A stretch of 64,000 nt of DNA, from contig OY282361.1 in the NCBI GenBank assembly GCA_958295645.1, positions 2,508,501 to 2,572,500 of the forward strand, written 5' to 3'. Position numbers and translations under genes: made by a program. This document shows, one piece after another, positions 11,329 to 14,626 of this stretch. The first letter of the stretch is position 1, and each line of letters starts with the position of its first letter. Under the pieces are notes generated by a model. It was not told where the DNA came from and made no database searches. It worked only from the letters and a program-made list of their open reading frames with translations. The DNA is from Longimicrobiales bacterium (lineage in GTDB: Bacteria > Gemmatimonadota > Gemmatimonadetes > Longimicrobiales > Gaopeijiaceae).

Positions 11329-12531
11329 GTGCCGAGAAACGGGTCGCGTTCGCCGTCCGGGCGGAGCGAAGGGCTTCCGCCGGGAGAGGCCGGACGCTTT
11401 CGAGCCGCGCTCCTGCAGCGCTTCGACCGGACCCGCAGACCGCTGCCCTGGAGGACCGCCCGCACGCCCTACCGGATCCTCGTGTCGGAATTCATGCTGC
11501 AACAGACCCGGGCCGAGACTGTCGCGCCCTACTACGCGCGCTGGATCCGCCGGTTCCCCTCGTGGGACGCGTTGGCGGCCGCCTCGCCGGACGACGTGAT
11601 GCGCGAATGGCAGGGCCTCGGCTACTACGCCCGCGCCCGAAACCTGCACCGCACGGCTCAGATCGTGCGGAAGCGCTTCGGCGGACGCCTCCCGGCCGAC
11701 CCCCGCCTGCTCGTGGAGCTTCCGGGCGTGGGCGAATACACCGCCGCCGCAGTCGCGAGCATCGCCCATGAACGCCCCGTGGCCGCGGTGGACGGCAACG
11801 TGCGGCGGGTCGTGGCACGGCTCCTGGACATGGCCGACCCGCCCGCCTCCCGGGTTCGCCGGGCGGCCGAGCAGATGCTGGACCCGGAGCGCCCCGGAGA
11901 CTTCAACGAGGCGATGATGGAGCTCGGCGCGACCGTGTGCCTGCCGCGCAGGCCGCTGTGCGAGGCCTGTCCGGTCGCCGCGTTCTGCCGGTCGCGGGCC
12001 GCGGGGACGCCGGCCCGCCGGCCGGGCGCTCGCCGTTCGCGCCGCCTCCGCGAGGCGGTCTTCGCATCGGCGGTGTTCGTGGACGGGCGGGGCCGCACGC
12101 TCTTGGCGAGGCGTCCGAGCAAGGGCCTGCTGGCGGGCCTGTGGGAGTTTCCCGGCTCCGAACTGCCGGCAAGCGAGGCCGGGCGCGGTTCCGAAGCGCC
12201 GGGTCCGGAATCCCCCGGCCTCGTCGAAGAGGTCGCGCGGCGGCGGCTGGCCGACTTCGGCTTGGCCGCGGGCGCCTGCCAACGTCTCGAACCCGTCAAG
12301 CACGCCTTCTCCCACTTCCGGGCGACCTACCATCCGGTGATCGTTATGGAGCAACCCGGCTCGGCCGCTCCGAAGCGCCTTCCTGCCGGGGCGCGCATGG
12401 TGCCCGCTCGTCCGTCCGGGTTCCGCCGCCTCGCCGTGTCGGCCGCCCAACGAAGAATCGCCGAGCTTCTCCAACGGCGTCTCCTCGCCGAACCCGAGTC
12501 CCGCCCCTTGGACGGAGGCGCCTTGCCATGA
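11329..12531 (+). CDS. mutY: A/G-specific adenine glycosylase MutY
   Basis: This 400-residue base-excision-repair enzyme removes adenine mispaired with 8-oxoguanine. It shows EFMLQQTRAETVAPYY, the helix-hairpin-helix with catalytic Asp (LPGVGEYTAAAVAS, then AVDGNVRRV), the [4Fe-4S] loop (CLPRRPLCEACPVAAFC) and a C-terminal Nudix-like 8-oxoG recognition domain with LWEFPGSE and KHAFSHF. Length is slightly above the usual 350-370 because of an Arg/Pro linker after the cluster. The start is GTG 11329; RFRAALLQRFD, about 25 residues in, marks the conserved beginning. The stop overlaps the ETF-QO start as ATGA. Confidence 0.95.
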   Translation: MPRNGSRSPSGRSEGLPPGEAGRFRAALLQRFDRTRRPLPWRTARTPYRILVSEFMLQQTRAETVAPYYARWIRRFPSWDALAAASPDDVMREWQGLGYYARARNLHRTAQIVRKRFGGRLPADPRLLVELPGVGEYTAAAVASIAHERPVAAVDGNVRRVVARLLDMADPPASRVRRAAEQMLDPERPGDFNEAMMELGATVCLPRRPLCEACPVAAFCRSRAAGTPARRPGARRSRRLREAVFASAVFVDGRGRTLLARRPSKGLLAGLWEFPGSELPASEAGRGSEAPGPESPGLVEEVARRRLADFGLAAGACQRLEPVKHAFSHFRATYHPVIVMEQPGSAAPKRLPAGARMVPARPSGFRRLAVSAAQRRIAELLQRRLLAEPESRPLDGGALP

Positions 12532-14183
12532 CCCCTCCCCTGCGCTTTCGGCCCGCCGACTACCAGCCCCCGCTCCAGCGGGACAGCCTCGTCGTGCCGG
12601 AGCGGCCCGGCCCGGAGGCCGTGCCCATGGACGTGGTCTTCGTCGGCGGGGGACCGGCGGGCCTCGCGGGCGCCGTCGAGCTGTCCCGCTTGGCGAAGGC
12701 GGCCGAGGCTGCCGGCGACGGCCCCGGTGCGCTGGAGATCGGCGTTCTCGAGAAGGCCGGGTCGCTGGGCGAGCACAACCTCTCCGGGGCGGTGGTCGCA
12801 CCCGCTCCCTTCCGGGCGCTCTTCCCCGGCGTGGCGGACGACGAACTACCGTTCCGCCGTCCGGTAGGCCGCGAGGCCGTGTATTTCCTCGGCGCGAATC
12901 GCGCCATGCGAATCCCCGTACCGCCGAGCATGAGGAACGAGGGCAACTTCGTGGCGTCGGTCTGCGAGATCGTCCGCTGGCTCGGGGAACGCGCCGAAGA
13001 GGCGGGCGCCAGCGTGCTGCCCGGGTTCCCGGTGGCCTCGCTGCTCGTGGACGGGGAGGCCGTGGTGGGCGTTCGCACGGTGGCTTCGGGCCTCGGCCGA
13101 ACCGGCGAGCCGGGGCCGGCGTACGCCGAGCCGATGGACGTCGCGGCGCGGGTCGTGGTGCTGGCGGAGGGCGCGCGCGGACCTCTGACCCAGGCCTACC
13201 TCGACTGGCAGGGGATCGGCTCGCCGAATCCGCAGATATACTCGTTGGGCGTCAAGGAGCTGTGGCGCGTCAAGCGCCCGCTGGATCGCGTCGTGCACAC
13301 TTTGGGCTGGCCGTTGGCGGACGGCTTCGGGGGCTCCTTCGCCTATCCGATGGCCGACGATCTCGTCTCCTTGGGCCTGGTCGCCAGCCTGGACGACCGC
13401 AACGCCCGCCTCGACGTCCACGAGCTGCTGCAGCGGCTGAAGCGCCATCCCCTGTTCCGCGACTTGCTCGAAGGGGGAGAGCTCCTGGAATGGGGCGCCA
13501 AGACCATCCCCGAAGGCGGATGCCATTCCTTGCCGGAGCGCCGGCACGGGAGCGGCCTCTGCATCGTCGGCGACGCGGCGGGCTACGTGGACGTCGCCTC
13601 GCTGAAGGGCATCCACTACGCGGTCCAGTCGGGCGTGCTGGCGGCGCGCGCCGTCTACCGAGCCCTGTGCGCGGACGATGTTTCGGCGAGCGGGCTGGCC
13701 TCCTGCACGGCTGCCGCCGACGCGTCGTTCATCGCGCGCGACTTGCGGCGCAATCGCAATATGCGGCTCGCCTTCAAGGGGGGCTTCTGGACGGGAGGAC
13801 TGAAGGCCGGGCTTGCCACGCTGACGGGAGGGCGCCTGCCGGGAGGCTTGATACGCACGCCCGCGGACGCCGAGGAGCCCAAGCACTCGGGATCGCGGCA
13901 GGCGGAAAGCGTTCCTGCGGGCCTGTCGAAGACCGACGCGGTGTTCAAGAGCGGCAACCAGACCCGCGACGACATTCCGCCGCACTTGCTGGTTGGCGAC
14001 GCCGTGCCCGCCGAAGTGGCGGACATGTACGTCCACCTGTGTCCGGCGGGCGTCTACGAAGCGAGCGACGAGGGCCTCGTCGTGAACGCGCCCAACTGCG
14101 TAGATTGCAGGGCGACCGACGTGCTCGGACCGCGCTGGACGCCCAGAGAGGGGGGCAGCGGCCCCCGCTACCGGCGCATGTAG
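12528..14183 (+). CDS. electron-transfer flavoprotein:ubiquinone oxidoreductase, lacking one cluster Cys
   Basis: This 551-residue enzyme moves electrons from ETF (fed by acyl-CoA dehydrogenases) to quinone at the membrane. FAD binding is shown by VVFVGGGPAGLAGA, the ETF-QO signature by EHNLSGAVV, quinone and FAD contacts by LIVGDAAGYVD-type and LKGIHYAV motifs, and the ferredoxin-like end by LCPAGVYE. The cluster motif is abnormal. Normal enzymes end NC..C..CD, whereas here residues 524-530 read CVDCRAT, so the fourth ligand is Thr530 (ACC at 14115). The tail after it is also a few residues short. The gene follows mutY by ATGA overlap and precedes a tandem CDGSH gene. Confidence 0.9.
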   Translation: MTPPLRFRPADYQPPLQRDSLVVPERPGPEAVPMDVVFVGGGPAGLAGAVELSRLAKAAEAAGDGPGALEIGVLEKAGSLGEHNLSGAVVAPAPFRALFPGVADDELPFRRPVGREAVYFLGANRAMRIPVPPSMRNEGNFVASVCEIVRWLGERAEEAGASVLPGFPVASLLVDGEAVVGVRTVASGLGRTGEPGPAYAEPMDVAARVVVLAEGARGPLTQAYLDWQGIGSPNPQIYSLGVKELWRVKRPLDRVVHTLGWPLADGFGGSFAYPMADDLVSLGLVASLDDRNARLDVHELLQRLKRHPLFRDLLEGGELLEWGAKTIPEGGCHSLPERRHGSGLCIVGDAAGYVDVASLKGIHYAVQSGVLAARAVYRALCADDVSASGLASCTAAADASFIARDLRRNRNMRLAFKGGFWTGGLKAGLATLTGGRLPGGLIRTPADAEEPKHSGSRQAESVPAGLSKTDAVFKSGNQTRDDIPPHLLVGDAVPAEVADMYVHLCPAGVYEASDEGLVVNAPNCVDCRATDVLGPRWTPREGGSGPRYRRM

Positions 14184-14206: not shown

Positions 14207-14626
14207 ATGAGGCCAGGCAACCAAGCCAAGATCGACCCCGGCGGCCCGCTCTGCGTGACGGGCGCCGTCCGCGTGGAGATGCCGGGAGGGGAGGTGCGGG
14301 AGATGTCGGAAGCGGCCCTGTGCAGGTGCGGCCGTTCGCAGGACAAGCCGTTTTGCGACGGGTCGCACGCAGTCGAGGGCTTCGCGGACGACGGCTTGAT
14401 CCACGGAGGACGGTTGGCTCCCGGAGAGGACAGCGGAGAAGGCGATCCGGTGACCCTGTCGTGCGCCGCCAACGGCCCGCTCCTGGTGCGGGGGCCGCTC
14501 ACGGTCGTGGCGGAAGACGGGCGAACCTCGAGCGGCGCGAAGGGGGCCCTGTGCCGTTGCGGGTCGTCGGCGACCAAGCCGTTCTGCGACGGAACCCACC
14601 GCCGAACCGGCTTCGAGGCGGCATAG
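14207..14626 (+). CDS. tandem CDGSH iron-sulfur protein
   Basis: This 139-residue protein contains two CDGSH [2Fe-2S] sites with the Cys3-His pattern: CRCGRSQDKPFCDGSH and CRCGSSATKPFCDGTH. It belongs to the double-CDGSH group known from bacteria, which act in electron transfer or Fe-S handling in the cytoplasm. The start ATG 14207 gives a typical opening with a GPLCVTG strand. It lies 23 bp after the ETF-QO gene, probably in one operon. That makes a functional link with the altered ETF-QO cluster conceivable but unproven. It faces the Nudix gene convergently, 9 bp apart. Confidence 0.88.
   Translation: MRPGNQAKIDPGGPLCVTGAVRVEMPGGEVREMSEAALCRCGRSQDKPFCDGSHAVEGFADDGLIHGGRLAPGEDSGEGDPVTLSCAANGPLLVRGPLTVVAEDGRTSSGAKGALCRCGSSATKPFCDGTHRRTGFEAA

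Follow-up and report, generated by a model that had tools for sequence, protein, structure and literature searches.

The closest described relative of the protein considered here is the canonical ETF-quinone oxidoreductase (ETF-QO; ETFDH, EC 1.5.5.1), represented by the pig enzyme (2GMH), which joins FAD- and quinone-binding domains to a [4Fe-4S] site with four Cys ligands and belongs to an enzyme class through which electrons released by fatty-acid breakdown enter respiration. A second described system is EtfD, the mycobacterial ETF:menaquinone oxidoreductase (PMC13083937, PDB 9ojn)—according to that source, a membrane-helix protein that has CCG domains and a linear [3Fe-4S] cluster and is unrelated to ETF-QO, with one Gemmatimonadota species named among the holders of its cluster motif.

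The window (the whole stretch of 64,000 nucleotides that was analysed) encodes a homologue that resembles the canonical enzyme in full-length sequence and fold, in both PF21162 and PF05187, and in three of the four cluster Cys, but differs from it by a Thr at the fourth Cys, a tail four residues shorter, the changes His526 to Asp and Thr529 to Ala, and other subfamily residues. We refer to homologues as Thr, Cys, or Ile types by their residue at position 530 of the window protein. The features of the locus are as follows:

11329–12531, + strand: MutY-like adenine glycosylase, its stop overlapping the ETF-QO start (ATGA)
12528–14183, + strand: three-Cys (Thr-type) ETF-QO homologue, 551 aa, with PF21162 and PF05187 over cut-off and a full-length match to the 2gmh fold
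14040–14042, + strand: Cys505 codon TGT (within CPAGVYE), predicted cluster ligand 1, invariant across the 189 Thr, 74 Cys, and 3 Ile types aligned
14097–14099, + strand: Cys524 codon TGC, predicted cluster ligand 2, invariant in the same alignment
14103–14105, + strand: Asp526 codon, candidate non-Cys ligand, Asp in every Thr type, where Cys types have an invariable His and Ile types Gln
14106–14108, + strand: Cys527 codon TGC, predicted cluster ligand 3, invariant in the same alignment
14115–14117, + strand: Thr530 codon ACC, where the fourth-ligand Cys would stand (73 Thr, 74 Cys, and 4 Ile among C-termini found without regard to motif)
14118–14180, + strand: C-terminal 21 residues, four fewer than in Cys types by tail-length comparison
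14207–14626, + strand: double zf-CDGSH protein, 139 aa, a neighbour in the closest clade only and outside the general system

The MutY-like gene (11329–12531), the ETF-QO gene, and the CDGSH gene (to 14626) are three consecutive genes for iron-sulfur-type proteins, the first two sharing a 4-base ATGA overlap. The ETF-QO homologue is single copy in its own genome, which is one contig of 2.89 Mb.

In Pfam searches, the quinone-binding domain PF21162 was matched at 78.7 bits, above its cut-off, and the C-terminal cluster domain PF05187 at 35.2 bits against a cut-off of 24; with a GGGPAGL motif also present in the translation, the protein has the FAD- and quinone-binding domains of an ETF-QO. An AlphaFold2 model built with 40 Thr-type sequences reached a mean pLDDT of 88.4, with a mean of 62 for residues 481–490 and moderate values over the cluster domain (blocks of 70–86 from residue 491 to 550), and its best PDB match in Foldseek was 2gmh, at a TM score of 0.85–0.86 over 575–579 columns. 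The pig enzyme was likewise matched directly by phmmer (E 2.8e-74), in an alignment that pairs NCVDCRATD of the window protein with NCVHCKTCD of 2gmh and sets Thr530 on the last Cys of CxxCxxC. Because the two motifs align without a gap, Thr530 is a true substitution, and we rejected an alignment slip as the source of the missing Cys, Asp531 being common to both. The window protein thus lacks one of the four Cys ligands of canonical ETF-QO. An earlier note on this DNA had read residue 530 as Thr (ACC, 14115–14117), leaving Cys505, Cys524, and Cys527, and the codons, read directly, and the ungapped alignment agree with it. It had also proposed aligning orthologues to see whether the Thr is fixed, naming close relatives with Cys at this position as the result that would count against it. 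Our ETF-QO search matched 52 of 58 genomes (the own genome and its relatives), and NC[VI]DC[KR]ATD stands in each of the 50 readable C-termini, those of the own genome and of 49 relatives in three families of its order, with the other three Cys invariant in every one; no Cys at 530 was found among them. The note had considered one protein, and the sequences place the feature in a multi-phylum subfamily.

That breadth emerged from several searches. A DNA pattern for the Thr motif matched 172 of 298 Gemmatimonadota genomes, a count that misses Thr types with CGN arginine codons, as in G187 and in three f7-family genomes. Scanning named contigs for the motif yielded at least 117 loci, selected by the Thr motif itself, with labels including Gemmatimonadota, Bdellovibrionota, Planctomycetota, Eremiobacterota, Acidobacteria, and Eisenbacteria; an ETF-QO carrying the motif was present in 116 of 117 scanned loci among the matches listed, the one without being L179. 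The phylum labels of metagenome-assembled genomes may be wrong, and doubt attaches to the only gammaproteobacterial one (L127), since the protein there shares 66% identity with that of the window. Protein searches blind to the motif returned 73 Thr, 4 Ile, and 74 Cys C-termini in total: 50 Thr from the own genome and relatives; 4 Thr, 3 Ile, and 2 Cys among the matches listed for Gemmatimonadota genomes without the DNA pattern; 10 Thr and 17 Cys from Bdellovibrionota (all matches); 6 Thr, 1 Ile, and 22 Cys from the best 30 matches in Planctomycetota; 3 Thr and 26 Cys from the best 30 in Acidobacteriota; and 7 Cys from plasmids (7 of 435 plasmid records). These counts leave out L094 (not an ETF-QO), L289 (cut off), L329 (in-frame stop), and 11 loci of the pattern-less Gemmatimonadota set in which the C-terminus was unreadable or the cluster domain absent. 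Identity to the window protein was 44–100% for Thr types, 45–49% for Ile types, and 32–43% for Cys types. The 217 Thr loci of the tail-length comparison are not independent, many coming from the same genomes; distinct 60-residue ends numbered 183 Thr, 70 Cys, and 4 Ile. By sequence, the three-Cys type is a well-supported, widespread ETF-QO subfamily found in several phyla. It is apparently undescribed so far: we found no description of a three-Cys ETF-QO in the open-licence literature, searched by the titles and abstract openings of the matches listed, with most subscription papers outside the search.

Among the individual loci, L296, L319, and L329 are ETF-QO matches with in-frame TGA stops, reflecting wrong match starts, assembly errors, or decaying genes. 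L094 (G086) is a flavoprotein with a ferredoxin-like tail, a weak match to the query, and a very long branch, and is probably a different oxidoreductase.

A maximum-likelihood tree of 60 rows separated 25 Thr and 3 Ile rows from 32 Cys rows by a branch with 100/100 support, the Thr rows forming one group and the Ile rows another. This tree was built without the last 62 residues, so that the cluster region is excluded, has no outgroup root, and corresponds to a 78-row tree from which L094 and 17 others, the latter for thinning, were removed. The substitution goes together with a deletion: every Thr and Ile type ends 21 residues after position 530, compared with 25 for 70 of the 74 Cys types, bearing out an initial impression of a shortened region. 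Because the separate ferredoxin FixX (chain 7koe_D) also has Cys at the position equivalent to 530, Cys was probably ancestral there and, by parsimony on the unrooted tree, lost once. All aligned full-length sequences (189 Thr, 74 Cys, 3 Ile) have the three remaining Cys. At position 526 every Thr type has Asp and the Ile types have Gln, with an invariant His in the Cys types. Ala stands at 529 in both the Thr and the Ile group, where most Cys types have Thr. Thr530 and Asp531 never vary among Thr types, and the Ile types, with motifs such as NCVQCGAIS or NCVQCNAIS, have Ser or Thr at 531. Other group-specific residues include Trp322, which replaces Tyr, and N.TRD (477–481), which replaces T.HEE. 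No group-wide Cys or His that could substitute for the lost ligand was found in this alignment, the best candidate, Cys146, occurring in 78% of Thr types and 0 of 3 Ile types, and we reject such compensation. Against this absence of a group-wide Cys or His substitute stand Asp526, Thr530, and Asp531, which are invariant in Thr types. Judged from these sequences, this central respiratory enzyme has truly lost a cluster ligand, and the loss is fixed, old, and present in several phyla.

Genomic context bears on function. Because the own genome has an EtfB-EtfA gene pair and a MenD over the family cut-off, the ETF partner and menaquinone are probably both present. MenD matches were found in 9 of 9 genomes, over cut-off in 8 including the own genome, and the futalosine gene PF02621 in 9 of 18, the own genome not among them. 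Quinone type was uninformative as an explanation of Thr versus Cys, since Cys-type ETF-QOs are also present in phyla regarded as menaquinone users. The ETF-QO gene of one Bdellovibrionales locus adjoins a gene for an acyl-CoA dehydrogenase, and an enoyl-CoA hydratase is encoded close by. An EtfD query, whose identity was established by phmmer to 9ojn_A (E 4.7e-90), matched 96 of the 298 Gemmatimonadota genomes at E 1e-40. Across the 298, the Thr motif was found in 172, EtfD in 96, both in 4, and neither in 34; the figure of 4 comes from comparing lists by eye, with the f5 part cross-checked, and may truly be 3, as the match in G046 is a 250-residue piece with stops. At E 1e-40 the EtfD query found nothing in the own genome, and Pfam found no CCG domain in the window ETF-QO. 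The near exclusion is partly a matter of descent, since 88 of the 96 EtfD genomes belong to one family (f5); a Fisher test takes no account of such relatedness and carries no weight here. Alternation is also seen within genera: in g5, G122 has EtfD and no ETF-QO match, and G004, G202, and G305 have the Thr motif; in g115, G255 has EtfD and no ETF-QO match, and G231 has the Thr motif. This pattern supports, though it does not prove, the idea that the two unrelated proteins probably perform the same task, and the near exclusion suggests that the window protein is a working ETF:menaquinone oxidoreductase. Separately, positions 1–1626 of the window encode a protein with two CCG matches, GlcF-like by eye and truncated at the window start.

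Our preferred reading, to which we assign a probability of roughly 60%, is that the window protein belongs to a distinct subfamily of working ETF:(mena)quinone oxidoreductases whose [4Fe-4S] site has become a three-Cys, [3Fe-4S] site. From sequence comparison we infer that a cluster is bound at all: Cys505, Cys524, and Cys527 would hold a [3Fe-4S] cluster, with Thr530 (Ile in the sister group) occupying the space of the lost fourth Cys. This cluster would accept single electrons from ETF and pass them to FAD, which in turn would reduce menaquinone. We prefer [3Fe-4S] because coordination by three Cys, with nothing in place of the fourth, would fit the Thr types and the Ile types alike, an Ile at 530 being incapable of acting as a ligand. 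The [3Fe-4S] centre of succinate dehydrogenase is held by three Cys, close to the place of quinone reduction and with an aliphatic residue at the lost Cys; it lies in a separate subunit with a different fold and offers an analogy, not homology. Ferredoxins that partner P450s share with the window protein a non-Cys residue at one ligand position of a ferredoxin-like motif, and in the available part of PMC6237146 those with such a residue, Thr among them, in CXX?XXC(X)nCP all held [3Fe-4S] clusters where examined, with potentials from −340 to +230 mV. That statement covers the examined ferredoxins, among which the Thr one (Fdx2) may or may not be counted. The precedent is also imperfect, as these are small separate proteins in which the missing Cys is the second of CXXCXXC and not, as here, the third, so that the geometry is not the same. 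Counting against the preferred reading, a residue that did no more than fill space would not need to be conserved as strictly as this Thr.

The main rival, which we consider possible but rather unlikely, is that the cluster is still [4Fe-4S], its fourth iron held by Asp526, Asp531, Thr530, or water. In every Thr type Asp526 stands where Cys types have an invariant His, Thr530 and Asp531 never vary within the group, and an Asp-ligated ferredoxin of P. furiosus is described in the available part of PMC6237146 as [4Fe-4S] when isolated without oxygen and [3Fe-4S] in air. Against it, the Ile types, which share the branch and the deletion, carry Gln526, Ile530, and Ser or Thr at 531, so that the clade as a whole has no protein ligand in common. 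A much less probable alternative, to which a site with only three sulfur ligands might point, is that it is no longer redox active and holds structural zinc, another metal, or [2Fe-2S], ETF passing electrons directly to FAD; the three Cys and the surrounding CPAxVYE and NC are strictly conserved, as in an active centre, and human ETF-QO without its cluster is reportedly unable to accept electrons from ETF. It is less credible still that a partner protein supplies a fourth ligand or an alternative path. The adjacent CDGSH protein is one candidate, its gene immediately following that of the enzyme in 9 of the 17 Thr-type loci whose protein shares 68% identity or more with the window protein, but the count is 0 of 115 at 60–68% identity and 0 of 62 below 60% (0 of 177 together), and 0 of 70 for Ile or Cys loci, adjacency being counted only in loci with at least 600 bases downstream. 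Seen in 9 Thr-type loci out of 194, each of them from the nearest clade, the adjacency is not the conserved one of a coupled redox pair, a CDGSH link is rejected as a general feature, and the arrangement is local. Of the earlier note's suggestions, a [3Fe-4S] cluster and a different ligand both stay live, and the alternative electron path through the CDGSH neighbour finds no support. Sequencing error or a decaying gene can be set aside as an explanation of Thr530, because Thr stands in all 50 readable C-termini across three families and the frame of this single-copy gene is intact, in keeping with the same note's view that it is no pseudogene.

Returning to the preferred [3Fe-4S] reading, its wider meaning, which we favour on balance, would be that a large class of ETF-QO spanning several phyla has permanently swapped [4Fe-4S] for a [3Fe-4S] (or Asp-ligated, interconvertible) cluster as the entry point for ETF electrons, an alternative to EtfD in menaquinone-using bacteria that family models score as [4Fe-4S]. 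The type of cluster probably departs from the one that databases assign. The 4Fe-4S model PF05187 scores this three-Cys protein above its cut-off. Thr-type ETF-QO and EtfD would then be alternative solutions within one phylum, and a natural subfamily that is deficient in a ligand while keeping three of four cluster Cys offers a direct test of what ETF oxidation and quinone reduction need of the cluster.

The Cys types show variation of their own. In 91% of the 74 (examined loci L291–L342 and L265–L281), three extra conserved Cys lie just before CPAxVYE, a possible second metal site that is missing from the seven plasmid-borne proteobacterial Cys types and from the Thr types. The 17 Cys types of Bdellovibrionota (L265–L281) carry a further Cys, in NCIHC[KQ]TCD[IL]KCP, so that richer and poorer cluster motifs coexist in this phylum.
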